Source: Flavipsychrobacter stenotrophus (GTDB lineage: Bacteria; Bacteroidota; Bacteroidia; Chitinophagales; Chitinophagaceae). From it: 64,000 bases of DNA. The translations under genes were made by a program, and so were the position numbers. Positions 9,092 through 31,700 of this stretch are shown here, in pieces. The notes under the pieces were generated by a model. The model was not told the DNA's origin. It was given only the letters and a program-made list of their open reading frames with translations, and made no database searches. Where the stretch lies: positions 1 to 64,000 of the forward strand of contig NZ_PPSL01000011.1 in NCBI RefSeq assembly GCF_002954265.1, read 5' to 3'. Numbering within the stretch: position 1 is the first letter of the stretch; every line of letters begins with the position of its first letter.

Positions 9092-12000
9092 ATGAAAAGG
9101 ATATTTTTACTTACTGCACTATCAAGTTTCCTTATAGTTCTATCGCTTTGTAGTTCCGCCCAAGTAACTATCACAGATAGCATCACAGCCACCGGGGTAA
9201 TACTAACTGCCCATGTGCCTACGGTTGCTACCACAACAGCTTCAGTACTTTCGGCAGATGACGGGTACACTGGATTGACCAACTTAGGATTTACCTTTAA
9301 TTACTATGGCAATAACTATACTCAATGTGTGGTGGGAGCTAACGGGCATATTACATTCAACAATGCATTGGCAGGGGCTTACGACCCCTGGCCTATAAAC
9401 AGCCAGTTGCTAGGTAATAGCAGTGCGCTCAATACCATTTGCGCGCCATGGAGTGATTACTGTTTACCGCTTGGCGGATCATGCTATTATATGACATACG
9501 GTGCAGCTCCTTACAGGACCTTTGCAGTTACCTTCTGCCGGGTAACGCTTTATGCATGCACATCTAACTACATAACCAGCACCATACTGCTGCACGAAAC
9601 AACAAATGAAATAGATATACTCATTGGCCATAAAACGTCAACATGTGCATGGAACGGCGGTTATTCGATAGAGGGGATACAAAATGCTACGGGTACCGCG
9701 GCTACAGCGGTACCGGGAAGAGATTATCCGAGTATATGGTCCGCAAGTAATGACGCACAGCGTTTTTCTCCTGCAATCGGGGGGGCGTCATACACTGTTA
9801 ATCCCATTCCTTATGCGCCGGTCTACCCGGCCACGGGACTTTCAGTGTCATGGTACGATAGCGCTACAGGTGCATACGTTGGCAGTGGTAATCCTATAAC
9901 AGTACATCCAGTTACCCCAACTAATTATATCGCTATTGTAACTGCATGTGCAGATTCGTTTGCCAGTGGTTCGATAGGTGGTGTAACAGGATCATGTACC
10001 GGTACACCAATAGCGGGTGCCATTACAACTACAACAAGCACTGCTTGCTCTACTACTACTGTTGCTCTTGCAGACACCGGCAGCACAATAGCTTCATCGC
10101 ACCAATGGCAATCTTCACCGGATAGCTTAACGTGGACGAACATTGCCGGGGCGGTAAGTCCTACTTATACATTTTCAGGATTAAGTGCAAATACATACTA
10201 CAGATGCCGTACCACTTGTTTGCTGGGTGGAGCATCAAGTGAAACCGCCGGTATACTTATATCTTATACTTCCAGTTGTCCGTGCGTACTGGCAAACCCG
10301 GGTATCGTAGTGTCTAATGTATCTCATGCATGTTCCACATTAACGATCATACTTGCCGACACCACGTATTCAGTATCTGCCGCTACAGTGCAGTGGCAAT
10401 CATCGCCCGACAATGTGACTTGGAATGATATTGCCGGCGCTACTAGTGCAACCTATTCTTTTACGGGACTGGCCAGTACTACCTATTACCGAATGAAATT
10501 CCTCTGCCTGTCGGGCAGCAGCAGTATGACATCGGCAAGCATAATGATCACTTATACGGCGGCATGTTCTTGTAGTGGTACACCTACAGCAGGATCAGCA
10601 ACAGCAAGTTCCACATTTTGTGGTCTATGTTCTGTAACGTTCGATCTTGTAGGATCAACACTTGCAGATAGCCTGGGTTACCAATGGCAGCGGTCGGTAG
10701 ATAGTGTTTCATGGTCTGATATACCAGGTGCAACTACAGTACCATACACCGCGACTATCTATAACACCTATTATTACCGGTGTAAAGTAACATGTGTACC
10801 TACGGCAAGTTCATCCTTTTCTTCGGGCGTGCGTGTGAGATTTCATTATTATATCACAGCCGATAGCGTTAGTACCATTTTAGATACAACATGCGCCGGT
10901 CCACGGTTTTACGTGTGGTCGAATGGTTACTCAGGTACACAGCGTATTAAAACATATTATGGTGACGGCCAGAGCGACTCTATGGCGCTTTCTTCAAGTG
11001 GGCTGATAGCCTATTCAAATGTTTTGCACCCATATAGCGCTCCCGGCTACTACACTATAAAACAATTGCTTTATGATAACAACGTACTGCAAGACTCAAT
11101 ATCATTTGTGTATCACTATTACTATTGCAGAACTTTCCCTGTAAAACTATTTGTGGATGAGAATGGAAACTGCTTTAAAGATGCAAGTGAACATTACAAC
11201 CATCTGCCCACGCAGGTAAGAGTGGACTCTAATGGTATCACAATTGATACAGTCTCTGTTACCAGCGGTCTTTATTACACCACTACCGGTGCCCCGGGCA
11301 CTGTATATTCCTTCAGGATCGTTAGCAGCACCTGGTTAGCAACCTGTCCGTCGTCGGGTGTTATTTATGACACGGTATCAGCCGGAGTTTCTGCATACCC
11401 AACAAAATATTTCGGGCTAACTTGTGGATCAGGATCTTTTGACCTATCGGTATATGCGATAAGTCAGGGAGCAGGGCCCAACAGGCAAAGAGGTAATATT
11501 TATCTTACCAATGCAACTTGCACACTAACACCTGCAACTGTAACGCTAAACTACAGTAACCTGTATAGCTGGAATTTCAATGCCGTTCCAGGTGTTTCAT
11601 CCAGTCTGCCATCATCGCTAAACTGGCATTTTACTGGCGTTACCGGTGATGCGGCGGCACCTTTACACATGTTTTTTGATGTATGGGCTCCTTCTTCAGC
11701 ACTAGCACCTATAGGAAATATTATTACCGATCATATCATTGCAATGCCCTTTATAGGTGACTATGATACTACTGATAACCATGTTGTAATTATAGACACA
11801 GTGAAAGGTAGCTGTGATCCTAACGCGATATCAGTATTACCTACGCAATGCCTGCACCCGGATAGCCTTGCGTTAAGATATACTATACAATTTGAGAATA
11901 TTGGTAATGATACAGCACACAACGTATATGTAATGGATACACTATCTGACAACCTTGACCCTCATTCTTTGAATATATTAATGGCATCAGCACAAATGGA

Positions 12001-12490
12001 TGTCTCGCTGATCAACGATGGAACACACAATATTATAAAGTTTGACTTTCCGGGTATCAACCTTATGGATAGTTCACAACACGATCTTTGCGGTGGCGCT
12101 GTGATATATGACATTAAAAGGTATCCAGGTCTGACCAATGGCACTAACCTTTATAATCGTGCAGGCATCTATTTTGATCATAACAGCGTGGTAATGACTA
12201 ATACGGTAACAACCACCATAGGATGCGATCTCTTAAATTTGCCGGATACGGCTGCATCTACCGAAGTTGAGATCTACCCCAATCCCGCAACTAGTGAATT
12301 GACCATAAAAGCAGATAAACTAGTATATAGCACTGTGGTCATTACCAATGCCGTTGGTCAGCAGTTTTCTTTGCAAAACATTACGGCCAATGTAAGCAAG
12401 GTAAATGTAAAATCTCTGGCAGCGGGGGTCTATTATGTTACACTAAGTGGGAGTAACGGGAATAAGGTACTTCGGTTTGTGAAATATTAA
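9092..12490 (+). CDS. Large surface protein with Ig-like repeats and T9SS sorting domain
   Basis: A 1132-residue secreted protein. A signal peptide covers residues 1-24. The N-terminal part (about 40-230) has the pattern LGFTFNYYGNNYTQCVVGANGHITF seen in many Bacteroidota adhesin-like proteins. Three related Ig-like units follow, each with a QWQ(S/R)S.D...W..I.GA core (about residues 310-590) and paired Cys. Further on, about 900-1050, is a DUF11/DUF7619-like conserved repeat (LRYTIQFENIGNDTAHNVYVMDTLSDNLD). The last 80 residues (YPNPAT to LRFVKY) are a T9SS type A sorting domain. It is presumably displayed on the cell surface; adhesion is a guess from architecture. Confidence 0.88.
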   Translation: MKRIFLLTALSSFLIVLSLCSSAQVTITDSITATGVILTAHVPTVATTTASVLSADDGYTGLTNLGFTFNYYGNNYTQCVVGANGHITFNNALAGAYDPWPINSQLLGNSSALNTICAPWSDYCLPLGGSCYYMTYGAAPYRTFAVTFCRVTLYACTSNYITSTILLHETTNEIDILIGHKTSTCAWNGGYSIEGIQNATGTAATAVPGRDYPSIWSASNDAQRFSPAIGGASYTVNPIPYAPVYPATGLSVSWYDSATGAYVGSGNPITVHPVTPTNYIAIVTACADSFASGSIGGVTGSCTGTPIAGAITTTTSTACSTTTVALADTGSTIASSHQWQSSPDSLTWTNIAGAVSPTYTFSGLSANTYYRCRTTCLLGGASSETAGILISYTSSCPCVLANPGIVVSNVSHACSTLTIILADTTYSVSAATVQWQSSPDNVTWNDIAGATSATYSFTGLASTTYYRMKFLCLSGSSSMTSASIMITYTAACSCSGTPTAGSATASSTFCGLCSVTFDLVGSTLADSLGYQWQRSVDSVSWSDIPGATTVPYTATIYNTYYYRCKVTCVPTASSSFSSGVRVRFHYYITADSVSTILDTTCAGPRFYVWSNGYSGTQRIKTYYGDGQSDSMALSSSGLIAYSNVLHPYSAPGYYTIKQLLYDNNVLQDSISFVYHYYYCRTFPVKLFVDENGNCFKDASEHYNHLPTQVRVDSNGITIDTVSVTSGLYYTTTGAPGTVYSFRIVSSTWLATCPSSGVIYDTVSAGVSAYPTKYFGLTCGSGSFDLSVYAISQGAGPNRQRGNIYLTNATCTLTPATVTLNYSNLYSWNFNAVPGVSSSLPSSLNWHFTGVTGDAAAPLHMFFDVWAPSSALAPIGNIITDHIIAMPFIGDYDTTDNHVVIIDTVKGSCDPNAISVLPTQCLHPDSLALRYTIQFENIGNDTAHNVYVMDTLSDNLDPHSLNILMASAQMDVSLINDGTHNIIKFDFPGINLMDSSQHDLCGGAVIYDIKRYPGLTNGTNLYNRAGIYFDHNSVVMTNTVTTTIGCDLLNLPDTAASTEVEIYPNPATSELTIKADKLVYSTVVITNAVGQQFSLQNITANVSKVNVKSLAAGVYYVTLSGSNGNKVLRFVKY

Positions 12491-15256: not shown

Positions 15257-15649
15257 CTAAAGATGTGCTAATATTTTTTTTCTTGTTTCCTTTAAATCGT
15301 CCTGACTTACAGATAACTTCTCCCTCGTAAAATTCAAATCGTCTGCGCTATCTACAGGTACAAGGTGCATATGGGCATGCGGCACTTCCAAACCAATTAC
15401 ACTTATTCCACACCGATTGCATGGAAACGCTTTTTCAATTGCTTTAGCAACTGGTTTTGCAAACACCAACCATTTTGCTAACAAATCATCATTTACATCA
15501 AATATTTTATCTACTTCCACCTTTGGGACAACCAATACGTGTCCTTCCCTTATTGGAGTGATATCGAGGAAAGCGATAAAGCTATCGTCTTCAGCGATCT
15601 TATGACAAGGTATTTCTCCTGCGATGATCTTAGAAAATATTGAACTCAT
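15257..15649 (-). CDS. HIT family nucleotide-binding protein
   Basis: A 130-residue histidine-triad protein. The triad His91-x-His93-x-His95 (VPHAHMHLVPV) is intact, and the N-terminal SIFSKIIAGEIPCHKIAEDD is typical of the HinT/Hit group. These hydrolyse nucleoside phosphoramidates or adenylated molecules. The ATG at 15649 follows the greA stop by a single base, so greA and this gene form an operon, an arrangement often seen in Bacteroidota. Confidence 0.95.
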   Translation of the reverse strand: MSSIFSKIIAGEIPCHKIAEDDSFIAFLDITPIREGHVLVVPKVEVDKIFDVNDDLLAKWLVFAKPVAKAIEKAFPCNRCGISVIGLEVPHAHMHLVPVDSADDLNFTREKLSVSQDDLKETRKKILAHL

Positions 15650-15650
15650 A

Positions 15651-16124
15651 TTATGCCGAAATATTCTCTACTTTAAATTTAAAGGTTCCACTTGGCGCGC
15701 TTACTTCAGCTATCTCACCTATGGCCTTGCCTAAGAGGCCCTTACCAATAGGAGAAGTAACCGATATTTTACCGGCTTTCAGATCTGCTTCACTTTCAGA
15801 AACTATTTTGTAAACCAGTGTTTTCTTGCTGGCCATATTAGTAACTGTAACCGTACTCAGCACAGAAACCTTACTAATATCAATATCTTTTATATCAATA
15901 ACACGTGCATTCAGAATAACATGTTCTAATTGAGCAACTTTTGCTTCATGGTGTCCCTGCGCTTCTTTGGCAGCATCATATTCAGCGTTTTCCTTTAAGT
16001 CACCTTTTTCCCTTGCCTCTGCTATTGCATGCGCAATTTCCGCACGGCCAGTAGTCTTTAGCTTGGTTAATTCCTCCCTCATCTGAGCTAAAGTCTCCTT
16101 TGTCAAATAATTCAATTCAGACAT
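15651..16124 (-). CDS. greA: Transcription elongation factor GreA
   Basis: A 157-residue GreA. The N-terminal coiled coil (LTKETLAQMREELTKL to EAKVAQLEHVI) includes the conserved tip GDLKENAEYDAAKEAQ with acidic Asp and Glu that enter the RNA polymerase secondary channel. The C-terminal FKBP-like domain includes ISVTSPIGKGLLGKAIGE. It rescues backtracked polymerase by stimulating transcript cleavage. The ATG at 16124 (MSELNYLTKETL) is chosen over an upstream in-frame start because GreA begins there. The leader has a hairpin (16159-16184). Confidence 0.97.
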   Translation of the reverse strand: MSELNYLTKETLAQMREELTKLKTTGRAEIAHAIAEAREKGDLKENAEYDAAKEAQGHHEAKVAQLEHVILNARVIDIKDIDISKVSVLSTVTVTNMASKKTLVYKIVSESEADLKAGKISVTSPIGKGLLGKAIGEIAEVSAPSGTFKFKVENISA

Positions 16125-16158
16125 TATAAATTTATTTATTGTAAATAGAAAAAAAATA

Positions 16159-16184
16159 CAACGCTCCCTTTTACAGAAGCGTTG
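16159..16184 (-). promoter_or_regulatory. Hairpin at the 5' end of the greA leader
   Basis: CAACGCT (16159-16165) and AGCGTTG (16178-16184) are exact inverted arms with a 12-base loop. The structure would form at the very 5' end of a transcript started from the -7 box at 16190-16197. It could protect the message or act in regulation; nothing more can be seen. Confidence 0.45.
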
Positions 16185-16189
16185 CACAA

Positions 16190-16240: not shown

Positions 16241-17350
16241 TTATTCTTCATCTTTAGATGCACTGCCTGCGCGAGTGAACCTAAGTGATATCATATGCAC
16301 ACCATTTGCAGGGCGCTGAGTTGGCCTGTATGAATAGTCAATAGCTAAAGAAGGACCATTAGCTCCAATACGAGTTTGAACAGTAGCACCTGCAGAAAGA
16401 CCAACATACATTGTAGTTGTATTTTCGGCATTACCGATACCCTTTTCGTACCTGTAAGCAGCGTTAAGGCTGAACATATTCTTATAGGTATAAGATGCAC
16501 CAACACCTATATAGTCATTGATGAATGAGTTTGAAGTGAAGCTACCCATGATAGTCAGCTTATGCATTGGCAAACTGTCTGCGTTGCGAACGTGATTTTC
16601 ATCGAGGTAAAAATCGTAAGCGGCAGAAAGATTGAGGTAAGTAGGCATACTGAACTTATCTGAAGGAGAGTTAACAGAAATAGTATACCCTGGTGAAGAC
16701 TGTGGCTGATCTGCATTGATAGCAAAACCGGTACCAGAGAACTTCATGTTAGTACCCAGATTACGTAGTGTAACACCAATATGGAAATTATCTTTCTTAC
16801 CGGTCACATACTGGATGCCACCTTCGAAGGCTAGACCCAATGCGTTGATATTGTTGATCTGCTCAGACACATAGGTCATGCCGAAACCAGCATTAATGTT
16901 CTTTGAGAACTGGCGAGCAAAGCCAAGCTGTACGTTAAGGTATTGTGGATGATAGGTACCATAACCATCGGGATTGAAATAATCGGTTGCCGGTATATCT
17001 CCAAAGCTCATAGACATGATATTGATACCAATAACATTGTCATGACCAATATTGTGCGCAACGCCAAGATTATTGATGTTGATGCCAGATCCTGACAGAT
17101 AAACGCCATGAGATACGCCCACTTCAGTAGTGCTATCGGCAGCAAGACCTGCAATATTGCATTTCATAGCTTCCAAACCACCAACAAAAGAACCGTTGTT
17201 ACCGAACAAACTTGTAGTACGCGCCCATGGATTAATAATTAACTCCGGTGCACCCGACTGACCTATACGATCTTTGTTACCAGCAAATGAAGTAAAAGAA
17301 ATACCCAAAGCGCAGATGGCAACAAGAGTGCTATTTGAAAGTTTTTTCAT
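16241..17350 (-). CDS. PorV/PorQ family outer-membrane beta-barrel protein
   Basis: A 369-residue protein with a signal peptide (about 1-23) and the features of the PorV/PorQ family (14-stranded FadL-like barrels): the early segment NPWARTTSLFGNNGSFVGGLEAMKCNIAGLA, a repeated VGVSHGVYLSG / NIGHDNVIGINIMSMSFGDIP, and alternating beta strands to the end. PorV carries T9SS substrates to the attachment complex; PorQ has a related role. This copy is the third gene of an operon whose second gene has a T9SS-like tail, so it may be a dedicated shuttle for that product. That is inference; it may instead be the cell's main PorV. Confidence 0.82.
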   Translation of the reverse strand: MKKLSNSTLVAICALGISFTSFAGNKDRIGQSGAPELIINPWARTTSLFGNNGSFVGGLEAMKCNIAGLAADSTTEVGVSHGVYLSGSGININNLGVAHNIGHDNVIGINIMSMSFGDIPATDYFNPDGYGTYHPQYLNVQLGFARQFSKNINAGFGMTYVSEQINNINALGLAFEGGIQYVTGKKDNFHIGVTLRNLGTNMKFSGTGFAINADQPQSSPGYTISVNSPSDKFSMPTYLNLSAAYDFYLDENHVRNADSLPMHKLTIMGSFTSNSFINDYIGVGASYTYKNMFSLNAAYRYEKGIGNAENTTTMYVGLSAGATVQTRIGANGPSLAIDYSYRPTQRPANGVHMISLRFTRAGSASKDEE

Positions 17351-17376
17351 ATTTATATGCTTGTTGTATATTTATT

Positions 17377-17399
17377 GGCAGGGAGCAGTGCTCCCCGCC
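17377..17399 (-). promoter_or_regulatory. Intercistronic hairpin before the PorV-like gene
   Basis: GGCAGGGAGCA pairs with TGCTCCCCGCC (one mismatch) almost without a loop, in the 60-base gap between the 1329-residue protein gene and the PorV-like gene. No U-run follows, so it is more likely a processing or stability element that sets different expression of the two genes than a full terminator. Confidence 0.55.
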
Positions 17400-17410
17400 T
17401 GTAAATGAGA

Positions 17411-20400
17411 TTAATAAGTTGTTGCATCTATCGGGCGCATAGCACCGAACCATTTCAGGATAACTTCACCCATACCTTCAGCCTGAACATGCATCAGGTA
17501 CATACCACCTGCAATAGGTAATCCTGCAGAGTTACGAACATCCCAATCAATGTAAGAAGTGTTTGGATCGCTCTTTGAAAGCGTACGAACAAGCGTACCA
17601 TCAAGTGAATAGATACGAACAGTAGTACGAGCAGGCAAGTTGATGATCTTCACCTTAGTATCGTAACGGCTAGTTTCATACCCAGAGTAACCATAATAAG
17701 GATTAGGCACGGACTTTATCCTATCCAATAAACCACTCTTATCAGGATTATCGGCCAAGGTAGATGGAGCCAATTGAGAAGTACTGAATGTATAGTAAGG
17801 CCAAGCAGTACGACCTGCTGCAAGGTTGATCATATCAGCTGTGTCAGTATTCGTTCTGTACGGAGCGTATGGACGATTAACCCTGAATCTCAATGTAGTT
17901 TCGGTAGGTATCAAGCCCTCTTTAAGGCTCTTCAGCGGCGATGCCGGATTAACTGTAGGGAAACCTACCCAACGAGCCAATGCATATGCTAATCTAAGTT
18001 GTGTATTTGATGGTGCGGAAGCCTTAACCTTAGCTACGAAGTCAGCATCACCATCATACTTAGTACCCAGGATATAAATGATGTGCTTACCACCAAATAT
18101 CGCAGAGTTATCATAAGGGCTGAAGATGTTACCAGAAGGATTCCAGATCATATCAGCACCGTTGTCCTGACCGAGGTATGAATCTTCACCGAATACGATA
18201 TTCAACCTTTGCCCTGTAACCTGATCGATAGCATAACCTGGGAACCATGACATACTTCTGTCTTCTGAATTGTCGGAATAAACAGCACGACCAGCTGCAT
18301 CTACATCACCATTCCAACCAGCATGCCTTCTCAGATAAAATTTGTTACCATGATTTTCAGCCAGCATAGAATCTTCCTGTTCTTCAACAACACATACTCT
18401 TGTCCACTTGCTTTTATCATCAGTAAATACAAGATTCACATCGGGTAACTGAGCCATGGTAGCAGAATTCTGATTAGCAGATGTAAACGCTATCTGGAAA
18501 CCGCATGATGTACCACTACCATAGTGCTTACCATAGAATGGAGCAGCTAATGGGTAAGGAGCCCATGTTTTGTTCAATGGAGTGAAGTTAGAGAACATAT
18601 TCTCATATACCTGGAAAGTATCCAGCTTATTGTCATTAAAATCACATGGATTGCCAGTACCGTAGGTAGGAGAATAACTCTGCTTATTACCAGATCTGAT
18701 CCAGTTAGCAAAGCTACTATCTTCCTGATCGGAAACACCAGCTAACCAAGGCTTTGATTTATCAGCAAATACAACATTAGAAGTTATATAACCGTTACCG
18801 TTATCCTGCTCAACGCCCGGGGCATTAGCTTGCTTAATATTAACTGACAAACCATACTTTTCAATGATCTGCTCATTGATAGAGTTGATGCTTCTTTCGC
18901 TGTAGATAGTTTCTACAACTGCACCATTTTTCTTCGCGGTCAAAGACCATGTAGCATCGACGCTCAGGTTAGAACCAGACAATGGGCCATTCAATTGGAA
19001 AACCCAATCCAACGCAGGAACCTTAACCGGATCTACAACTGTTACGTTAATCGGACCCTGACCCTGATTGTAAACCGCTCTGGTGATAGTAGTATCATGT
19101 AAGATAGTATCACTTGAGGCATCGCTCAATTCAACAACATTACCACCGTTACCTAAACCCTGTACACGAGTAACTATGATACCTGAACCAAAGTCTGCAT
19201 TCAAAGTAGTACCCATTGCACCATTTGCCGGATTAGGCATACCTACCGCAATTGGGATGTTTATACCACCAGCACCATGTGCACTACCAATGTAAGGCTG
19301 ATCCTGTGTCTTATTGTAGTTAGGGCCCTGAGAATTGAAAGGAGCAAAGTTGTTATAACCATAGGCTATGGCAACGAAATAATAATTGTGATAGTTGATC
19401 AAAGCCTTATCAGCAACCTTAGAGAACTGATCCTGAGTGATCTGGAAGCTATGAGCAATACCACTATCCTTACCAACAACCTTGATGTGAGGAACCCATG
19501 AAGTATCACTAACAGAAGTAACTTTTGAATAGTTAACAATTTTAGTAATCTTGTTAGAAAGGTCGCACTGGAATACTTCATAAGCCTTAGAGTTATCAAC
19601 CTCACCTGTGGTAGGATCGAAAATTTCAGCAGAAGTTACGTTAGCATTAGCCAACTGGAATACACGGTAACCTTCAAATTTGTAAAGTGTATCCGCAACA
19701 TTCTCAGCCTTCGCTTTTGAAACTACCTGATGATATTTGCTTGAATCCTTATACGCACCATCTAAACGACCGTAGTTTTCTGCATAGTTATTGCTACCAT
19801 AATCATTGATCATGTAGAATACCAACCTGCGATCTAGTTCGCGAACTACCAAACGTGGAGCTTCAGGACCTTCTGTAGTTTTAAAGCCTGCTTCAAACAA
19901 AGCTTGTGCACCATCATCAATACTCTTGATAGTTTTGAAATCTGTGTTAGGACAACCGCCTACACCTGACGCCCAAACGCAACCAAAAGTAATATCGTTG
20001 GTAGCACCCGGAAGCAACTGGAAAGGACCAGAAGAGAATATGAAACGACGGTCATTTCTTTGGTTATCACAAGAGCACTCAGACCATGTAGTTCTATCAC
20101 CCGGGTCGCCAGTAAATACGAAATTAGTAATAGGGCCATCGCCAAAACCCGTTGAAGTAACACCAGGACCTTTAAAGTCATTTCTGAAACGGTCACCAAA
20201 TTTTACAGAACCAGTCATATAGTTATATATCTGCACACCGTTTGATGGGTTAGCGAGGTTACCCGACTGTTCATTATTGTAATAAGTAAAGTTGGTCATC
20301 TTGAGGCGGAGGAACGTGTCGCTCATACCTGGGCGTTTAACCGGACGGATTGGGCCTTGAAAGAAGTCAAGACCTATCTGTGGAGGATTAGCACCATAGC

Positions 20401-21400
20401 TATTTACCGGATAACCACCATCCTGACCATCGCTTGAAGAACCATTGTACATGATACCCAGACCACGTGTTGTATCGCAACCAATAAAGTCATCTTTGTA
20501 GTAACCAAGATCACAGTCATCCCATACGGCAATGTATGTGCTGTCGATTGTGAGTGAACCACGATTGATAACCCTGTAATTACAGAAAGTAGCATTATTG
20601 AGGAAGTCCTGAGTAGAGTAAGCGAATGCAGACGTCTGCACTTCTATACCCATTGCAGAAGTCTGAGTCTGCTGCTTTACGTTACCTGCATCATTAGTTA
20701 CCCACCAGATATACTGGTCTCCTCTGATATCGGGATACTCACCATTAGCGTAATCATATTTACCATTGCCATTAAGATCGACAAAAGGGGCATAGCTTGA
20801 CGACGAACTTAAAGTAAGAGGGCCGCCATTAGCACCCTTAGTGTGTGCTGCGTTACCAGATGCCGGCCATTGACGAATAGCGTCAAATTCCGAACCATCT
20901 ACGTTACCACCTGTCTTTGACAGCTCAATAAATTTATTGATAGTAGATTTTTCTATTTTCCAGAAGCGATCCCAGTTAGCACAATCATCAGAAGTGATCT
21001 TCGCAGTAACTACATCGAGCGCACCCGGCCAATAGTCATTACCATCCTGACGGTAAGTCTGTGCGGCAACCTTTAGCTGACCCTGCTTATCAAATCCACC
21101 GATCCAGCAAGAAGCAGCGAACTGCGAACTCTTACCAGAATTTTTAGGGATCTCATAAGCGGCCACTTCAAGACCGATATTCCACCACATATCACCACCG
21201 GTCATCAACCTTGCTCTAACATTATTAATGTCAAGGTCAATTGCCGACACAGCTGGCTGACAACCTGTAAGCGTTGTCTTCAACTGACTTTTATGACCGG
21301 TTGAGTTAACATTCTCACGAGCGCTAACTTGCCCGCTAACCCCTAGTATGCCAATTAAAGAAAGGGTTCCCGCAATTCGTATTTTTTTCGAGATATTCAT
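17411..21400 (-). CDS. Giant secreted protein with T9SS-type C-terminal domain
   Basis: A 1329-residue exported protein of unknown function. A signal peptide spans about residues 1-28. Residues about 205-225 read DLNGNGKYDYANGEYPDIRG, an acidic, probably calcium-binding loop, followed by an aromatic-rich region. The final 90 residues (SVPNPYYGYSGYE to EVILKWFGAM) form an Ig-like FlgD/T9SS type A fold, with an odd nine-residue extension (MRPIDATTY) beyond the usual end. It lies 30 bases after the TonB receptor gene and 60 before the PorV-like gene, all on one strand. The set suggests a surface complex with the receptor. It contains no recognised catalytic domain. Confidence 0.8.
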   Translation of the reverse strand: MNISKKIRIAGTLSLIGILGVSGQVSARENVNSTGHKSQLKTTLTGCQPAVSAIDLDINNVRARLMTGGDMWWNIGLEVAAYEIPKNSGKSSQFAASCWIGGFDKQGQLKVAAQTYRQDGNDYWPGALDVVTAKITSDDCANWDRFWKIEKSTINKFIELSKTGGNVDGSEFDAIRQWPASGNAAHTKGANGGPLTLSSSSSYAPFVDLNGNGKYDYANGEYPDIRGDQYIWWVTNDAGNVKQQTQTSAMGIEVQTSAFAYSTQDFLNNATFCNYRVINRGSLTIDSTYIAVWDDCDLGYYKDDFIGCDTTRGLGIMYNGSSSDGQDGGYPVNSYGANPPQIGLDFFQGPIRPVKRPGMSDTFLRLKMTNFTYYNNEQSGNLANPSNGVQIYNYMTGSVKFGDRFRNDFKGPGVTSTGFGDGPITNFVFTGDPGDRTTWSECSCDNQRNDRRFIFSSGPFQLLPGATNDITFGCVWASGVGGCPNTDFKTIKSIDDGAQALFEAGFKTTEGPEAPRLVVRELDRRLVFYMINDYGSNNYAENYGRLDGAYKDSSKYHQVVSKAKAENVADTLYKFEGYRVFQLANANVTSAEIFDPTTGEVDNSKAYEVFQCDLSNKITKIVNYSKVTSVSDTSWVPHIKVVGKDSGIAHSFQITQDQFSKVADKALINYHNYYFVAIAYGYNNFAPFNSQGPNYNKTQDQPYIGSAHGAGGINIPIAVGMPNPANGAMGTTLNADFGSGIIVTRVQGLGNGGNVVELSDASSDTILHDTTITRAVYNQGQGPINVTVVDPVKVPALDWVFQLNGPLSGSNLSVDATWSLTAKKNGAVVETIYSERSINSINEQIIEKYGLSVNIKQANAPGVEQDNGNGYITSNVVFADKSKPWLAGVSDQEDSSFANWIRSGNKQSYSPTYGTGNPCDFNDNKLDTFQVYENMFSNFTPLNKTWAPYPLAAPFYGKHYGSGTSCGFQIAFTSANQNSATMAQLPDVNLVFTDDKSKWTRVCVVEEQEDSMLAENHGNKFYLRRHAGWNGDVDAAGRAVYSDNSEDRSMSWFPGYAIDQVTGQRLNIVFGEDSYLGQDNGADMIWNPSGNIFSPYDNSAIFGGKHIIYILGTKYDGDADFVAKVKASAPSNTQLRLAYALARWVGFPTVNPASPLKSLKEGLIPTETTLRFRVNRPYAPYRTNTDTADMINLAAGRTAWPYYTFSTSQLAPSTLADNPDKSGLLDRIKSVPNPYYGYSGYETSRYDTKVKIINLPARTTVRIYSLDGTLVRTLSKSDPNTSYIDWDVRNSAGLPIAGGMYLMHVQAEGMGEVILKWFGAMRPIDATTY

Positions 21401-21430
21401 AACTTAATAAAGTTATAATGAAATTAGAAA

Positions 21431-24400
21431 TTAAAAATTGTATTCCAGACCAAAGTTTATAGTACGCGCATAGTTGTAATTGCCCGGAGAGTTAGTATTG
21501 ATCTTGTAAAGGTCAATATAAGACTGAGGATTTACCTGCTGAGGTATCTTCTGCAAACCAAATGAAGATGTAAGGAATCCATCATCATCAGGACGGCCTG
21601 TGTAACCATAAACTCCAAGTATTTCGCGCGTGTTCAACAGATTCTGGCAGTAGATAAAGACTGACAAGTTCTGAGGTCTTCCGCTTCTGATTCCTGCAAC
21701 TTCTGCATCCTTAGATTTTTTACCAAAACTGAATGAGAAATCTTTATTGATACGTGCGTCCATACCAAAGTGCCAAGGAAGGCGAGAACCATTGATACCA
21801 CCAATTACAGTGTTACCCTGGGCATTTGCAAACCTGGTGAAAGGCTCACCGCTTCTTGTTCTACCAACCAGATTAAGGCCTGAATTTTCGAAGATGTGTT
21901 TGTTACCAACTACAGGGCCTTCACCCTTCTTGAAGCGATAATCGAAGTTAGCGCTGATGTTGTGACGAGAATCGTAATCGAGAGCAGATATATAACGCAG
22001 GTTAGGCAAACCAGCTTCGATGAAGCTCTGCAACAAACCTTGTGGAGATATCTGACCACCACCACCACCATTGGTAGAATATGGAGAAGAACCTGTTCCT
22101 TCTGCAAACTGCAATGTGTAAGCAATGTTCATTGTTAAATGCTTGGTAGCACGCATGTCGTAATTCAATTTCACACCCTTAGTAGACGAGAAGTCACGGT
22201 TACCGTAAGTGTAATAAGTAGTAGGCCATGCATACAAGTAAGGTTGAACTGTGATCATATCCTTACGCTCTTTGTAGAAACCAATGATCTTTAAAGCAGC
22301 TGATTTACCAATAACCTGTTCAAAACCTAACTCATAGTCGAAAGTCTTCTGTGAGCGCAGATTAGCATTACTGATGATCTGGTTAGAATTCTGGTTAAGG
22401 TAATAGTAATCATAAGCTGTAGCGATACCCAAACTTGTAGGGTAAGGGCGCTGAACATACACATCATAATGCGCAAAGAAGTTAGAGTTTTCTGTGATAG
22501 GGAAACCTACCTGAATACGTGGCATAACTGTAACCTGCGGATTGTAATCTGTAAATGACTTGTTGGCATTGAAATCAGCATCTGTGATCTTCTTGTTGTC
22601 AACCAACATAGGCTGAGGATCACGACCGTTAGAATAATCTTTCAGAACTGATGGATCTTCAATGTACTTACCAGTATAATCATACCAGTTATTGCCATTT
22701 CTGTAACCAATGATCTGTGGGTTAGTTGAAGAGTTGTCATTCACATAAACAACAGACTCATTGCTAAGGTTTGAAGGATGATGACCCAAAGGATTACCTG
22801 CTCCTGAAGTTTCGCTGATATTTTTTGTTTCATACAAAGAATACGGATCTTTCAACACCTTAGTATTAGCTGAATAACGTTCTACACGAACACCAACATT
22901 GAAGAGGATATTTTTGTACTCGAATTTATCCAATACATACCCAGCTATATAGTTAGGACTGAATGCACCAATAGGACGAGTGTAGTTACCGTTAGCATCT
23001 TTTGCAGTCCAGAAATCATTAAAGTTAACCGTACCATTCTGCGCACCACCGGTGTAAGTATAACCGTAGTAGTTTACAAAAGAATTACCGCTATTCAATA
23101 ACTCATCGGCAGAGAACATATCCAGAGAGAATGTTGAAGGACTAAGCGCGTCGATATTGATATCCTGTGTACTGTTGTAACCCAATTTCTTTCTCAGGTT
23201 CTTGTCGAATGGAGTCTGAACAGCGTTCTTGTAGTTATACATGATCGTATCTGTAGGGCCAGGAATAACGGCACCGTTAGTTACATCTTCCAATGTATAA
23301 TGCTTGCCGTTAACTATGAAGATCGGGTTGTTCTTATCCAAAGACAAGTTACCATTGTCCTTACTGCTCACCAGCTGCCTCATTTGCTGCCAGAGCGATG
23401 CTGTACCAGATCCGTTGAGGTTGGCACTTACACTGTAAGACCTCTGAATACGCTGCTGATAGTACAAACCAAATTCTATACCATGCTTGATGTTTCCGAT
23501 CTTAAGGTCGAACTGGGCATCTACAGATAACGCATACTGATTAGATGTAAAGTTTGAATAGTAGCTCTGAGTAGCACCAGGGCTGAGGAACAGACCATAT
23601 GTGTAAGCAGGCTCATCACCATTAGCCAATGCATTCCTTGATTGCAACTGATTGATAGTAGCAGGGTGATTGTCGCCAATTGAATTGTAGAACTGAGTAG
23701 TGTAATTCGCAAGACCCGGATTCAATTCTGACCTTGTAAAGTTGATACCTGTAGGAATAGAGCCTAACAATACTGTACCCCTTCTGCCGCTGATTGAATC
23801 ATATTGATTTGGCAGGTAGAAATCCTGATATTGTTTGTCAAATCTACCTATGTAAGCATAGTTGAAGATATTTTCTTTAAACACGGGATCCTGAACGTTC
23901 TGATATAATTTCTGGTAATCGATCTGTACTGAGTAAGCTGCATTAGAAATGATGCTGTGCTTGCCAGTATCAAAACCACCTTGCTTACCAAATTTCTGGT
24001 TGAAACGAACATAACCACGACCAGTGTAAGTATTTTGTACCGGAGTTGCATCAGGCGCAAACAAATTTCTGGCTCTGCTGTAAAGGTCATTTTTTGTGTA
24101 ATCGAACATACCACCTGCAGCAACGCGCATGTTGTCTGTTAATTTGTAATCAACCTTACCATTTAAACGTAATTCCTGTGTAGTGTTATTAGGTGGGCGA
24201 CGAGTAGTAGATAACATGTCGCGGGTAATGTAATTTGATGCATAGTTGTAAACCGGCAAACCACTGTTATCAGCAACTATTTTCAATGGGTTCTTCTGGA
24301 GCTCAGCGAGCTTGTCGCCCTTAGTTACATATTCAGGGTTGTAAGAAGGATACCTGTTCTGATCATTGTAGTAGTCACCGCTGAGTGAGAAACCCATAAC

Positions 24401-25213
24401 AGGTTCTGGCTTACGGGTAGTATCGGCAAATTTTTTCTTCAACAACGGACCTGCCAAGGAAAACGACACCAGGTTATTTCTGTAACCATCAATTGAATGC
24501 TGCAAACGAACACCGCCATTGAACTTACGGGCAACACCCTTCGATGTGATGTTGATAACCGCACCAGATACGTCACCATAGTTGGCCGGGATACCTGAAG
24601 AAATAACTTCAAGCTGCTCAGTAGCACCCTGTGCCATATCAATACCTTGTGAACCCTGTACCTGTACACCATCAATTACATAAAGGTTACCAGAGCTACG
24701 ACCACCGTCTGAGTTCAGGCCACCACCACGCTTTTGCTGATAGATACCAGGAGTTTGAGCTACAAGGTCAACAGTTTGTGTTGTTGGCTTGTTTTTTATC
24801 TCATCTGAGGTGAGTGTGGTAGAGTGTTTGTACTTGTCTACCAATGGTTTCTTGTAACTTGTTACCACTGCAACCTTAAGTTCTAAACCGCCGGCACTAC
24901 TTTTCAATGAAAAATTAAGACCTGTTTTTTCACCCGGAGATACTATCACCTTTTCGACAGTCTGGGTCTGATAGCCAAGATACGTTACTGTAACTTCATA
25001 ATACCCTGGATCTAATGGTTTTATGCTGTACTTACCATCAAAGTCAGTTACCGTACCCCCTTTCAAGATACCCCCTTGCTTCACCATCACCGACGCACTA
25101 ACCAGCGGTTCTTTCTTATTATCGGTAACAGTACCCAGAATCTCCTGAGCAATGGCTGACCCTGACAGCCCAATAAAAACGAGTAATAGCAGATAACGTA
25201 ATGTCCGATTCAT
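21431..25213 (-). CDS. TonB-dependent receptor with carboxypeptidase regulatory-like domain
   Basis: A 1260-residue outer-membrane receptor. It has a signal peptide (1-22), a carboxypeptidase-D regulatory-like domain (about 24-110, GTVTDNKKEPLVSASVMVKQGG ... GKYSIKPLDPGYYEVTVTYLGY), a plug domain (about 125-235, YVIDGVQV and ISSGIPANYGDVSGAVINITSKG), then a long barrel ending in a terminal Phe (FGLEYNF). No SusD-type partner lies beside it, so it is not a typical glycan-uptake pair; its partners are the giant secreted protein and PorV-like protein downstream. A near-consensus -7 box TATCTTTA lies 35-42 bases upstream. The imported or bound substrate is unknown. Confidence 0.9.
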   Translation of the reverse strand: MNRTLRYLLLLVFIGLSGSAIAQEILGTVTDNKKEPLVSASVMVKQGGILKGGTVTDFDGKYSIKPLDPGYYEVTVTYLGYQTQTVEKVIVSPGEKTGLNFSLKSSAGGLELKVAVVTSYKKPLVDKYKHSTTLTSDEIKNKPTTQTVDLVAQTPGIYQQKRGGGLNSDGGRSSGNLYVIDGVQVQGSQGIDMAQGATEQLEVISSGIPANYGDVSGAVINITSKGVARKFNGGVRLQHSIDGYRNNLVSFSLAGPLLKKKFADTTRKPEPVMGFSLSGDYYNDQNRYPSYNPEYVTKGDKLAELQKNPLKIVADNSGLPVYNYASNYITRDMLSTTRRPPNNTTQELRLNGKVDYKLTDNMRVAAGGMFDYTKNDLYSRARNLFAPDATPVQNTYTGRGYVRFNQKFGKQGGFDTGKHSIISNAAYSVQIDYQKLYQNVQDPVFKENIFNYAYIGRFDKQYQDFYLPNQYDSISGRRGTVLLGSIPTGINFTRSELNPGLANYTTQFYNSIGDNHPATINQLQSRNALANGDEPAYTYGLFLSPGATQSYYSNFTSNQYALSVDAQFDLKIGNIKHGIEFGLYYQQRIQRSYSVSANLNGSGTASLWQQMRQLVSSKDNGNLSLDKNNPIFIVNGKHYTLEDVTNGAVIPGPTDTIMYNYKNAVQTPFDKNLRKKLGYNSTQDINIDALSPSTFSLDMFSADELLNSGNSFVNYYGYTYTGGAQNGTVNFNDFWTAKDANGNYTRPIGAFSPNYIAGYVLDKFEYKNILFNVGVRVERYSANTKVLKDPYSLYETKNISETSGAGNPLGHHPSNLSNESVVYVNDNSSTNPQIIGYRNGNNWYDYTGKYIEDPSVLKDYSNGRDPQPMLVDNKKITDADFNANKSFTDYNPQVTVMPRIQVGFPITENSNFFAHYDVYVQRPYPTSLGIATAYDYYYLNQNSNQIISNANLRSQKTFDYELGFEQVIGKSAALKIIGFYKERKDMITVQPYLYAWPTTYYTYGNRDFSSTKGVKLNYDMRATKHLTMNIAYTLQFAEGTGSSPYSTNGGGGGQISPQGLLQSFIEAGLPNLRYISALDYDSRHNISANFDYRFKKGEGPVVGNKHIFENSGLNLVGRTRSGEPFTRFANAQGNTVIGGINGSRLPWHFGMDARINKDFSFSFGKKSKDAEVAGIRSGRPQNLSVFIYCQNLLNTREILGVYGYTGRPDDDGFLTSSFGLQKIPQQVNPQSYIDLYKINTNSPGNYNYARTINFGLEYNF

Positions 25214-25677: not shown

Positions 25678-26616
25678 TCAACTAGTTATCTTTATAAGTA
25701 GTACATAACTCATCTTGTATAAAGCTTCAAAAGTGTAACCTGCAATGTGCGGAGTGGTAATAACATTATTCATAATCATCAGTTCGGCCATGGCATTTTT
25801 TACCTCTTCATTCATGGCAGAAATTGGCTCCTGCTCAAAAACATCGAGGCAGGCACCCGATATTCTACCCTCTTTTATACCCCTTAAGAGGTCTATTGTG
25901 TTAACAACCTGCCCTCTTGACGTGTTGATCAAAGTGAATCTTTTTTTCATGTTTAAAATAAACTCCCAATTAAAATACTCGACAGTATCTTCCTGTAACG
26001 GAACATGAAAACTAATAATATCACAAACTGAAAATATTTCTTCTATTGTTGTGGCATTTATCACATATGATGGGGTATCCGCAACCATATACTTATCATA
26101 TGCATATATAGTCATATCAAAACCCTGTAGCTTTTTTGCAAAAGCCCGGCCTGTATGTCCAAATCCGATTATGCCAATGTTCTTCCCTTCCAGCTCTATC
26201 CCTCTATTCTCATTTCTTAGCCACAATCCATGCTTCATCTCTCCATTACTGATGGTTATTCGCCTGTTCAGGTCCAACAGCATACCTACGGCATGCTCAC
26301 CAACAGCATTACAATTCCCTTCGGGACTACTGTAGCACTCCACCCCTTTTCGGGTAGCATAGGAAACATCTATCACTTCCATCCCCGACCCCATTCTTCC
26401 TATCCATTTCAAGTTAATAGCCAGATCAAGCAATATACTATCCAGCTGCAGGCGGGTAGATGTAATAATGCCGACATAATCACCTACAAGCGTATGCGCC
26501 GTAGATTGCGTAATGTGCTCGTGCACATCACATGTATATCCCCCAGCTATAAGCCCTTCTATTAATACTTCATGTACAGGGGCTGCTATTAGTACCCTAC
26601 CCTTCTGTCCTATCAT
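25678..26616 (-). CDS. D-2-hydroxyacid dehydrogenase (phosphoglycerate dehydrogenase-like)
   Basis: A 312-residue NAD-binding dehydrogenase of the D-2-hydroxyacid family. The Rossmann motif GIIGFGHTGRAFA is at residues about 148-160. The catalytic Arg (NTSRGQVV), Glu (DVFEQEP) and His (TPHIAGYT) are present, as is the PEGNCNAVGEHAVGMLL helix. It is shorter than SerA and lacks an ACT domain, so the substrate is uncertain; 3-phosphoglycerate, glyoxylate or hydroxypyruvate are possible. The start overlaps the stop of rsmA by four bases (ATGA), so they are co-translated. Confidence 0.88.
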   Translation of the reverse strand: MIGQKGRVLIAAPVHEVLIEGLIAGGYTCDVHEHITQSTAHTLVGDYVGIITSTRLQLDSILLDLAINLKWIGRMGSGMEVIDVSYATRKGVECYSSPEGNCNAVGEHAVGMLLDLNRRITISNGEMKHGLWLRNENRGIELEGKNIGIIGFGHTGRAFAKKLQGFDMTIYAYDKYMVADTPSYVINATTIEEIFSVCDIISFHVPLQEDTVEYFNWEFILNMKKRFTLINTSRGQVVNTIDLLRGIKEGRISGACLDVFEQEPISAMNEEVKNAMAELMIMNNVITTPHIAGYTFEALYKMSYVLLIKITS

Positions 26617-27368
26617 AAAAAGTATCGTTCGTAAAGACCCACAAAATCAAGTACAGACAACTGTTCCGCACGCTTATCCATTATTGGCTCTAGCAGTGCA
26701 GCTGCCGGTACAACACTCTTTAACGCGTTGCGCAAGGTTTTTCTGCGCTGACCAAAAGCGGCCTTTACCAGTATCTTAAATTTCCTTTTATCATTGATGT
26801 TATGAGGATTGTGCAGGCTGGTGAATTTGAGTACGCCGCTTTTTACCTTTGGTGGTGGCGTAAAAGAATTTTCATGCACTTCGATCATAAATTCCACCTT
26901 ATAAAACGCCTGCATCAACACGCTTAAAATACCATAGGTTTTGCTACCAGGACCGGCAGCTACACGCATTGCTACCTCTTTCTGAAACATACCTATAACC
27001 TCCTGCACCTGAGGCTCCCAGTCTAGTATTTTAAACAAGATAGGAGAGGATATATTGTAAGGAAAATTGCCGATTACACTAAAATTACCTTCAAAGGGAA
27101 TATCTGCCTGCAGAATGTCTTTGCTGATGATCTTACCTGCTATAGCCGGATATGTTTTATTGAGGTAATCTATCTTCTCCGTGTCTATTTCTATGGCCTT
27201 AAAGATCACATCAGGCAGCTGTATGAGGTACTTTGTGATAGCGCCGCCACCAGGGCCTACTTCCAACAAATTCATTCCGGATTTTACATCAAGAAGGGCA
27301 ACAATTTTCTGACACATATCCTCGTCGTGTAAAAAATGCTGTCCCAGACTTTTCTTCAGCGTATACAT
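26613..27368 (-). CDS. rsmA: 16S rRNA (adenine-1518/1519-N6) dimethyltransferase
   Basis: A 251-residue KsgA-type enzyme that dimethylates the two adjacent adenines of the 3' end of 16S rRNA. It begins MYTLKKSLGQHFLHDEDMCQKI, has the SAM motif EVGPGGGAITKYL (residues about 36-48), the catalytic NFPYNISSPI (101-110) and the C-terminal GQRRKTLRNAL. The length is slightly short but typical of Bacteroidota. A -7 box ends four bases before the ATG, so the transcript may be leaderless. Confidence 0.97.
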   Translation of the reverse strand: MYTLKKSLGQHFLHDEDMCQKIVALLDVKSGMNLLEVGPGGGAITKYLIQLPDVIFKAIEIDTEKIDYLNKTYPAIAGKIISKDILQADIPFEGNFSVIGNFPYNISSPILFKILDWEPQVQEVIGMFQKEVAMRVAAGPGSKTYGILSVLMQAFYKVEFMIEVHENSFTPPPKVKSGVLKFTSLHNPHNINDKRKFKILVKAAFGQRRKTLRNALKSVVPAAALLEPIMDKRAEQLSVLDFVGLYERYFL

Positions 27369-28721: not shown

Positions 28722-31700
28722 TTATTCTTTAACCAGACGGTGTACTGATTTATTCGTGCCCGAAGTTATTTCTACCATGTAAATTCCTGAAGCAAGATCC
28801 TTCAATGAAATGCTGATATTACCAGACTGCATTACACCGTAGTTGCTGTTATAAACACTTACACCAGTTACATCCAATACCCTGATAGATACGTTTTCAG
28901 CACTTGCACCCGAATAGACAATAGTAACAGCATCGGTTGCCGGATTAGGAGACAAAGTGATCTTTGTAGCAGCTGCTTTTGACGAGCCTGGTTTCATTGA
29001 CAATTCAAACCTTTGCTCACCTTGTGTTCCAGTATTGTTATCTACATTAAATCTGTACTCAGTTCCCTGCTCAAGCTGAACATATTTGTTCATCAACTTA
29101 TCATGAAGATATAAAGGGCTATTACCCGGTGTAACTACTGACTCTGACTTAATGATGTATTCCTTATTGAACTTAGTATTGATACCCAGTGCAACCACGC
29201 CGTCTTCAGAGAACGGTCGTGCATCTATCGCCAGTTTCTTACCATCGGCTGATAATGAGTAGAAATTCAAATCACCACCCTGCAGCTTCGCAGCATCGAA
29301 ATCGTTGTCTTCATTTACAGTAGCAGTTTCACTGAATTTAACTGATAGCATGTCCCAAGGACTGTGATCCGCATCATAAATAACCAATGACACATCGTTG
29401 GGGCTTGTCTTCAATAAGTTGTGTGTAGAAGTTACACCCTTATTGCTTTCACTAAATGTAAGCGCATCTCCATTGTTGGCAGCACGTATCTGGAAACAAG
29501 AGTTACCTTGCAAATAATAAGGACTAGCCGCACCAACACCAATGGTAATTGTACGGAACTGTCCACCTGCACCCAGGAACGGATCCCAAACATAGAATGC
29601 AGGACCAACCACTTTGCCATCTGTTTTAGCATTGTAGCAAACCGTACCAATATCTACAGGAGAAGCGTATGGATTACCTACCATGTTATAGTCTTGATTT
29701 GCTCCGCCACCCTTTACGAGAGCTACCGTCTGATCACCCTGGTTAAGAGCCCCAACCATACCAATAGTATTCGGATCAATGACATCAGTTATATAACCAA
29801 GTCCTTGTCCCTTTACACCACGGAAGAACAAACGGATGCCCTGATAACGATGGAAAGTATTCGTATCTGCAGCCAACGCATTGATCTTAGTAAATGGTCT
29901 CCAACCCGGATCGGAAGATAAAGATGAATTACCCATAGCAGGATTGTATCTGTAAGAAGACGGGTTATTAGTAGAGGTAGTTGTAAAGCCATTGGCTGAA
30001 CCACCTTGTCCAGTAATATCAAGATATTGCTGCACCTGACTCAACGATATAGTTGAGCTGAATGGATGACTCCAGAAACGGTAACGGCGATAGCCTCCCG
30101 GTATGTATTGCATCACCTTTACATTACCTGCAATAGATGAACCGAATGTAATTGGTGCAACTCTTGCAGTACCGCTTGCATCGGATGCGAGTGTAAGGCT
30201 ATCGTGTGTAGTTAATGTACCTGAGGTCATAGTAATTGACTTAACTATAGTCATTCTTGCACCAGTATTTATGGCAGCACCAGCACTATTATTGAGTTCA
30301 AAATTACTTACCTTACCAATACCAGTAATAGCCTGCGCCGACGTACCATTTAAGCTTAAATTACCATCTCCGCTAAGCGTACCGCCATTGCTAAGCGCAC
30401 CCTTTACGTATAAAAACGCGTCAACATCTGCATTGATAACAGCACCCGATGCAACCGTAAGATTTCTAGTATAAACAATTCTCGTTGTTGATATCAGCGG
30501 GCTGTAAGTAGTTCCCGAAGGTATAGTAACGTCGGTAGTATCACCTGGTACAAAACCACATGACCAGTTAGAAGCTCTTTCCCACTCTGTTTCGTGCGCA
30601 AAGGTACCACCTACCCACTGCATAGGCACAGGAATAAGCGTTGCGAACGTGTCATAAGTTGTTGTGCAGGTAGCATTATGCACCTCCACTAATTCATATA
30701 CATGTGTTGCAGAAAGATTGCCGGTTGCCAAATTAAATGTACCACCGGTTAATGTTTCAGTTACATTAGCGGCTCCATCAATGTTATAAACGACTGATGC
30801 GCCTGAAGTACCAGTAAATACAATAGCAGATGCGTAATTCATACAAGGATTTTCTGCAGACGTAATTGCTGCTGTAGGATAATCAACAACAGTTACGCTC
30901 TGAGTAGCGGCACTTGTACCACATTCGTTAGTAAAGCTATAAGAGATCGTTGAGGTACCGGCAGAGACACCTGTAACCACACCACCGGCAGTTATTGTGG
31001 CCACTCCCGTAGTTACACTACTCCATGTACCCAACGCTGTAACATCGGCTAGTGTAGATACTGTACCAGTACAAAAACTAAATGTACCTGTGATAGCAGC
31101 TGGCATGTCTGGCACTGTATGAATATCGATCGATTTTACTGCTGGTGTACCGCAACCATTAGAATATGTGATAGTTGTTGTACCAGCTAATACACCTGTA
31201 ACTACGCCAGTACTTGCATCTACACTTGCTATTGTCGGATCATTGGAACTCCAGCTACCCATAAGAGCGGAATTGGTAAAGGTAGTTGTAGCCCCTACGC
31301 AAATGGAATTAACACCACTAATTGCATCCGGCGTACCCAAAGTAGTAAAACCGGTTGTTGTATAACACGTTCCAAGTGTATAACTTATGTTGGCTGTACC
31401 AGCGAGAACACCAGTAACGGCACCACTAGAAGCGTTGACAGTAGCTATCGTTGATGCCGAACTTGACCAAACTCCGCTACCTGTAAGGTTGCTAAGTGTT
31501 GTGGTCGAACCTTCACAAGCATACATAGTGCCGGTAATTGCAACAGGGGTCGGGTTTACAGTTAGTGTACGAGTTGAGTAGCACGATGTTGGCAATGTAT
31601 AAGATATCGTAGTTGTTCCGGCAAGAATACCTGAAACACCAACAGGATCACTGGCATCGACTGTTGCTATAGACGGGCTATTTGAACTCCACGATCCTCC

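Follow-up and report, generated by a model that had tools for sequence, protein, structure and literature searches.

A conserved unit of a TonB-dependent receptor, a large protein with a predicted PorZ-like C-terminal domain and a PorV-family barrel in Bacteroidota

In descriptions of the type IX secretion system (T9SS), all type A cargo shares PorV as its only carrier; type B cargo goes with cognate PorP/SprF carriers, which also set the final location of the cargo (PMC12618676). PorZ and PorU keep their C-terminal domain (CTD), which in the case of PorZ is bound to PorQ (PMC10202324, PMC11285876), and it has been hypothesised that cleavage of a CTD can be prevented by a cognate PorV-like barrel (PMC10202324). 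Here we describe a three-gene locus, the trio, in a window of 64,000 nucleotides (the whole stretch of DNA that was analysed) from Flavipsychrobacter stenotrophus. It encodes a TonB-dependent receptor, a large middle protein and an outer-membrane barrel of the PorV/PorQ family. An earlier note on this stretch had suggested that the three genes form a dedicated secretion and surface-complex unit different from the SusCD systems. This suggestion is supported by the present analysis, and the trio is more widespread than the window alone could show. The parts belong to known families; for their combination as a repeated, co-diverging cassette, searches of an open-access library, which does not cover subscription papers and preprints, gave no description, and absence from print is thus not shown.

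The trio is located on contig C5 of the 5.43-Mb genome. The three large envelope genes lie on one strand in the order that had been noted, separated by 30 bases (receptor/middle) and 60 bases (middle/barrel). The features of the locus are as follows.

21431..25213, minus strand: TonB-dependent receptor, first gene, 1260 residues (open reading frame with CarboxypepD_reg and Plug domains)
17411..21400, minus strand: large middle protein, second gene, 1329 residues (open reading frame; no Pfam or NCBIfam family over cut-off)
19856..21232, minus strand: N-terminal domain of the middle protein, residues ~57–515, predicted beta super-sandwich (AlphaFold2 model; VIA fold matches)
17414..17743, minus strand: predicted T9SS-type immunoglobulin (Ig)-like CTD of the middle protein, residues ~1220–1329, with Lys1316 in the last strand (model; PorZ nearest)
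17414..17443, minus strand: conserved C-terminal tail of the middle protein, residues 1320–1329, past the last CTD strand (conserved in alignment A1)
16241..17350, minus strand: PorV/PorQ-family outer-membrane barrel, third gene, 369 residues (NF033709, 113.8 bits)
16156..16187, minus strand: terminator-like hairpin, directly 3' of the barrel gene and before greA (13-pair stem followed by a T run)

Genome searches covered the window's own phylum. Within the family, 29 of 147 genomes contain the middle protein, either complete or as large fragments (thresholds of 1e-120 for the receptor and 1e-40 for the barrel; at most 4 candidates per genome scored for the middle protein and the receptor and at most 13 for the barrel). 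The receptor was present in the same 29 genomes and the trio barrel in 28 of them; in the one genome without it (G144) the middle gene is cut by a contig end. The remaining 118 genomes yielded no receptor or barrel match at these thresholds, and the longest match to the middle protein among them was 52 residues at the C-terminus (in G008). Presence in the family is all-or-none. Family genomes have between 0 and 6 PorV-family genes, a number that alone does not identify the trio barrel; the trio-specific alignment A2 was used instead. Where present in the family, the window-type trio occurs in one copy, adjacent to greA in a conserved neighbourhood. Of the 28 family loci that were read, 23 have both neighbours of the middle gene, the other 5 running into a contig end. 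In a few fragmented genomes (G005, G032) the three genes lie on different contigs. The nearest named relatives of the middle protein are from Chitinophagaceae and Taibaiella (61% identity).

In the phylum as a whole, the middle-protein profile matched in 210 of 395 genomes, many of them weakly. Forty loci, hand-picked from the best listed matches at roughly one per family and thus not a random sample (7 from the same class, 33 from other classes), were read; receptor and barrel flank the middle protein in 36 of these, two end at a contig edge and two (L117 and L124) are without these neighbours. Among the best 80 named loci of 542 confirmed relatives, 68 have both neighbours, three of them with a wider gap to the receptor (450 bases in L158, 1079 in L163 and 1775 in L162, where the middle frame is also shorter). 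Seven loci lie at an edge, and five were scored as lacking one or both neighbours: four orphan middle genes and L180, a full trio with a second middle gene that is not counted among the 68. Named carriers of the trio include Taibaiella soli (L143) and Membranihabitans marinus (L185). Absence of the trio from relatives, which would have spoken against the earlier suggestion, is thus not what was observed. Given this conservation the arrangement is beyond chance, and the trio is kept as one inherited unit.

The third gene scored 113.8 bits with the PorV/PorQ family model NF033709 (cut-off 90), which bears out its placement in the family that shuttles T9SS substrates. The score was below the cut-offs of the canonical PorV equivalog NF033710 (46.4 versus 250 bits) and of the PorQ equivalog NF033711 (57.9 versus 220 bits, higher than its PorV score), and also far below that of the PorV2 equivalog. 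The window's genome contains three PorV-family genes: PorV, PorQ and the trio barrel. Its own PorV (NF033710, 420.7 bits) lies directly after PorU (NF033707, 439.9 bits, cut-off 420), and its own PorQ reaches 320.9 bits with NF033711. In a tree of 62 barrels, the four canonical PorVs form one group (support 100/100) and the barrels of the window's trio type form a separate group of 26 rows (100/100); the PorQ of the window's genome falls in a group other than the trio barrels. One of the 26 (G438_m240) sits behind middle-type frames, and no receptor was found there. The possibility, raised in the earlier note, that the barrel is the general PorV of the cell is ruled out by the separate PorV and PorQ in the genome and by the separate position of the trio barrels in the tree. 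Neither the barrel nor the middle protein has a sequence relative in the PDB at E≤1.

The first gene encodes CarboxypepD_reg (PF13620, E 1.8e-19) and Plug (PF07715, E 3e-06, 28.1 bits versus a cut-off of 23.9) domains, and the Plug domain together with the full length of 1260 residues identifies it as a TonB-dependent receptor; among the Pfam matches listed for it, no barrel model was over cut-off. A SusD domain was not detected in the trio proteins with Pfam or NCBIfam, so that the SusD-family neighbour typical of SusCD is missing, and the window's genome had no match to SusD_RagB (PF07980, the only SusD model used). The receptor is without a SusD partner, as had been proposed.

The middle protein was modelled with AlphaFold2 in two parts, residues 28–700 (predicted local distance difference test, pLDDT, of 90.9; 72 aligned sequences) and residues 690–1329 (pLDDT of 85.5; 70 sequences). 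The modelled C-terminus is an Ig-like sandwich with a basic residue in the last strand and agrees with the T9SS CTD fold, which is defined by such a sandwich and a conserved lysine close to the C-terminus (PMC10994853, PMC11285876). PorZ was the top match in Foldseek (E 1.1e-5) and in VIA (5m11, Z 10.9, root-mean-square deviation 2.1 over 91 residues, 23% identity; next entry Z 7.5). The CTDs of mirolase (7.0), PorU (6.9), RemA (6.7) and RemZ (6.6) followed with VIA Z values near 7, which are common to unrelated Ig-like folds too. The fold statement is limited to the CTD, the rest of the C-terminal half being barely covered by fold matches. The T9SS-like tail described in the earlier note is weak by sequence (FlgD_ig, E 0.014; type A signal TIGR04183, Por_Secre_tail, 11.3 bits versus a cut-off of 23), and it is the modelled fold that agrees with T9SS CTDs, PorZ best. 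Nine middle proteins of other loci were also analysed. Seven of these, including two of the window's type, match the PorZ model NF052228 at E≤0.0012, in the CTD part of the model only; TIGR04183 is over cut-off in one (L214, 24.1 bits) and below it in three. Of nine middle proteins compared with Pfam, none has a match over cut-off. The matches to CHU_C (type B) were all below cut-off.

In the type A CTDs known so far, a lysine close to the C-terminus is almost invariant (PMC10994853). Of 142 complete window-type middle proteins, 140 have a basic residue with exactly 13 residues after it (Lys in 111, Arg in 29), and the last residue is F or Y in 125 of the 142; in the 21 sequences of alignment A4 the basic position is Lys throughout. 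The last ten residues of the modelled protein have a mean pLDDT of 55. In more divergent trios (see below) the middle protein ends soon after the basic residue, as in GKFAIIK, and the longer tail thus marks the window's trio type and not the whole class.

The N-terminal domain of the model resembles the initial domain of enzymes from GH65, GH94, GH116 and further families and of bacterial glucoamylase, with VIA Z values of 14.3–19.0 over 213–275 residues (50 rows shown); the Foldseek TM-scores on the query were low, at most 0.29. In comparison with glycoside hydrolases and phosphorylases, the super-sandwich alone matches, and the modelled secondary structure contains no helical barrel. As a first guess, the predicted fold suggests a ligand that contains sugar. 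Around the operon Rfam gave no match at E≤0.1, and hence no riboswitch hint of the ligand. A stand-alone protein of 551 residues in the same genome (L005:1177–2832; C15:994809–996071) carries a domain 38% identical to this N-terminal domain, and on visual inspection, without a model run, its tail resembles that of ordinary type A T9SS cargo. The domain may thus be used in two export contexts.

Outside the window's class the PorV family is much larger, with 8 to 28 matches per genome in 26 genomes of other classes versus 3 in the window's genome. The surroundings of PorV-family genes were read in three distant single-contig genomes (G174, G216 and G438), and the middle genes of divergent trios were assigned from their place in the locus and with a CTD profile derived from window-type proteins. 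Altogether 36 PorV-family genes were over the family cut-off (16, 5 and 15, respectively). Twenty of these end a trio of receptor, CTD protein and barrel (10, 2 and 8), and two more directly follow a receptor; in one of the 20 (L220) a gap of 1.6 kb separates the receptor from the called middle frame. The middle proteins range from 615 to 1285 residues over the 18 trios of G174 and G438.

The three parts diverge together. In a set of 26 trios, pairwise correlations between the distances of receptor, middle protein (CTD included) and barrel have r values of 0.88–0.93, those of the receptor with the other two parts being 0.93 and 0.91; none of 2000 permutations was as high. The last 110 residues of the middle protein gave r values of 0.83 with the receptor and 0.74 with the barrel (again 0 of 2000), and the same comparisons for the 17 divergent trios alone gave 0.82–0.91. 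Within single genomes, where the CTD was excluded from the middle-protein distances, r was 0.60–0.87 in G174 (10 trios; value reached by at most 6 of 5000 permutations) and 0.76–0.94 in G438 (8 trios; by at most 36 of 5000), and barrel and CTD distances correlated with r values of 0.60 and 0.84. Since the correlation holds within genomes, species history is not the explanation. The co-divergence indicates that the cassettes were apparently duplicated whole, with little exchange of parts.

The best explanation of these data, in which we have somewhat more belief than doubt, is a T9SS-exported surface protein that is held by its own PorV-family barrel beside a TonB-dependent receptor, the whole working like SusCD with the T9SS-exported protein in the place of SusD. 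The middle protein would cross the inner membrane by Sec and the outer membrane via the ordinary T9SS translocon of the cell (SprA), with the Ig-like CTD as the signal. The trio barrel would then take the middle protein, instead of PorV handing it over to PorU for cleavage, and would retain the uncleaved CTD as PorQ retains that of PorZ, so that the middle protein is held on the cell surface. There, the middle protein would act as the surface-exposed binding partner of the receptor, as SusD does with SusC. Export through SprA and retention on the own barrel are suggested by the precedents of PorZ, PorU and type B cargo; joint uptake, as in SusCD, is suggested by the adjoining receptor gene. 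SprA was present in all 11 genomes tested, including the window's, and the trio was read in 10 of these (not in G406). As to the dedicated secretion and surface-complex unit of the earlier note, the trio is indeed conserved as a unit with a distinct barrel; it is not a secretion system by itself, because export would still need SprA, which the genome has.

Several observations weigh against this explanation. The window's middle protein has no NCBIfam PorZ match at E≤1 and stays below the cut-off for the type A signal, and among the nine middle proteins of other loci one has no PorZ match and another matches at E 0.07 only. The basic residue is Lys in 9 of 17 and Arg in 8 of 17 sequences of the window's family, whereas the lysine of known type A CTDs is almost invariant. 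The group of all 45 trio barrels is without strong support (89/90, just below the support mark of the tool). At two loci (L218 and L231) the middle protein is missing between receptor and barrel, orphan middle proteins without neighbours exist (L160, L161, L171, L203 and L117), and several middle genes share one barrel at L121 and L180. From the orphans it follows that the barrel either serves in trans there or is not always needed. Finally, SusD_RagB genes occur in 5 of the 10 genomes in which the trio was read, the other five being the window's own, G438, G379, G209 and G159; the trio is therefore not a simple replacement of SusCD.

Next in plausibility, at a clearly lower level, is a cargo with its cognate carrier only, in which the barrel carries and anchors the middle protein and the receptor is an independent transporter, placed in the operon only to be co-regulated. 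Receptor-free pairs have a precedent in type B cargo with PorP/SprF (PMC12618676), and the orphan and tandem middle genes are located away from a receptor gene. However, the receptor is linked as tightly as the barrel: it is present in 29 of 29 genomes, is the first gene in 68 of the 80 named loci, and shows the correlations of 0.93 and 0.91 given above; moreover, two loci retain receptor and barrel without the middle protein.

It is improbable that the middle protein is an ordinary secreted or lipopolysaccharide-attached cargo, processed by the general PorV and PorU, and that the trio barrel transports small hydrophobic molecules. This alternative draws on the homology of PorV to FadL, the classical FadL proteins being transporters (PMC12578637, PMC12611786), and on the apparent type A tail, seen by eye, of the L005 paralogue of the N-terminal domain. 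Against it speak the CTD model, whose closest match is PorZ with its uncleaved CTD, the conserved tail beyond the last CTD strand, and the barrel distances, which follow those of the CTD (r of 0.74 over 26 trios, 0.60 and 0.84 within genomes). Least probable is a complex for assembly or biogenesis, similar to that of the FadL-family BamG and the surface lipoprotein BamH: in the β-barrel assembly machinery (BAM) of Bacteroidota a large surface protein is indeed held over another barrel by a member of the FadL family (PMC12611786, PMC12578637) and the window-type trio is single-copy in a conserved neighbourhood, but presence in 29 of 147 family genomes is too patchy for a core assembly role, and the many paralogous trios of some genomes look like substrate diversification.

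The preferred explanation, i.e. retention of the middle protein on its own barrel beside the receptor, can be extended to a general and hitherto unrecognised class of outer-membrane uptake cassette, consisting of a TonB receptor, a T9SS-exported binding protein and its own PorV-family anchor barrel. On balance we lean neither way on this extension, by which the class would go back to the ancestor of Bacteroidota in the broad sense, would have grown to ten copies in at least one genome from another class, and would be single-copy or lost in the window's family, with SusCD lipoprotein systems serving the same need in the better-studied Bacteroidia.

Variants of the arrangement were also observed. 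At L218 (9176–13187) and L231 (9060–12852) the barrel follows the receptor directly, and these two barrels, from distant genomes, pair in the tree (100/98); beside the L231 barrel lies a 362-residue protein with a weak match to an NHL-repeat model. Two adjacent PorV-family genes stand beside a CTD-type protein in two distant genomes (L223:8756–10722 and L239:9194–11080). A second middle protein and receptor lie directly downstream of the trio at L111 (74–6709), giving two cassettes side by side. Several middle-type frames surround one barrel at L121 (1660–20000), L180 (1–10984) and L240 (9239–16742), which suggests that one barrel can serve several middle proteins; at L240 the frames may alternatively be broken copies.

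Downstream of the trio in the window lie greA and a histidine-triad gene (15257–16187), and upstream a 2-hydroxyacid dehydrogenase gene and ksgA (25678–27368), the latter side being retained in 20 of the 28 family loci. A greA-like gene follows the barrel in 24 of the 28, and the other four end before it; with the gene order kept in this way, a local accident or a recent insertion is ruled out. The retained genes on both sides argue for vertical descent at one chromosomal site. The hairpin at 16187–16156 has the longest stem of the seven found in the scan; in the scanned region as a whole, terminator-like hairpins are not above the shuffles (7 versus 6.8 expected), and matches to a Sigma-70-type promoter are at chance level (30 versus 28.3 expected). 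Further genes in the window encode a highly repetitive protein of 2265 residues with a type A T9SS tail (28722–35519, 40.9 bits), a type A T9SS cargo of 1132 residues with a DUF7619 domain (9092–12490, 117.7 bits) and a 961-residue DNA ligase D of the non-homologous end-joining type (5964–8849, TIGR02776, 525.3 bits).

Of the described systems, BamG-BamH resembles the arrangement proposed for the trio in that a FadL-family barrel with a large surface protein stands beside a further barrel and holds this protein (PMC12611786, PMC12578637). BamH is, however, a lipoprotein, and BamG-BamH is universal in Bacteroidota (PMC12611786), whereas the trio is patchy in the family and multi-copy elsewhere. 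In SprB-SprF, a type B system, the gene for the cognate carrier barrel likewise comes immediately after that of the cargo (PMC12618676); the trio differs by the PorZ-like CTD of the model, the PorV-family carrier, the receptor gene leading the operon and CHU_C matches that stay below cut-off. PorZ-PorQ is similar in that, as proposed for the trio, a T9SS-exported surface protein keeps its CTD, which is bound by a PorV-family barrel (PMC10202324). The modelled CTD of the trio is nearest to PorZ, and its barrel scores higher for PorQ than for PorV, both below cut-off. The differences are in the body of the middle protein (PorZ matches being confined to the CTD part), in the receptor gene that usually leads the trio, in the position of the trio barrels apart from the PorQ group and in the many copies found in some genomes. 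The trios thereby provide many natural cargo/carrier pairs for testing the protection of a CTD by a cognate PorV-like barrel, as the arrangement of barrel, cargo-like protein and TonB receptor accounts for more than half of the PorV-family genes in the three genomes that were read. SusCD pairs, finally, occur as co-diverged paralogues in one genome, as do the trios, and in both a TonB receptor shares an operon with a large surface partner, predicted to be such in the trio. The partner in the trio is without a SusD domain, ends in a predicted CTD of the T9SS type and has its own PorV-family barrel encoded after it. The trio may thus be an undescribed alternative to the SusCD nutrient-uptake pairs, and it is a candidate second solution to the problem solved by SusCD, that of providing a TonB receptor with a large extracellular binding partner.

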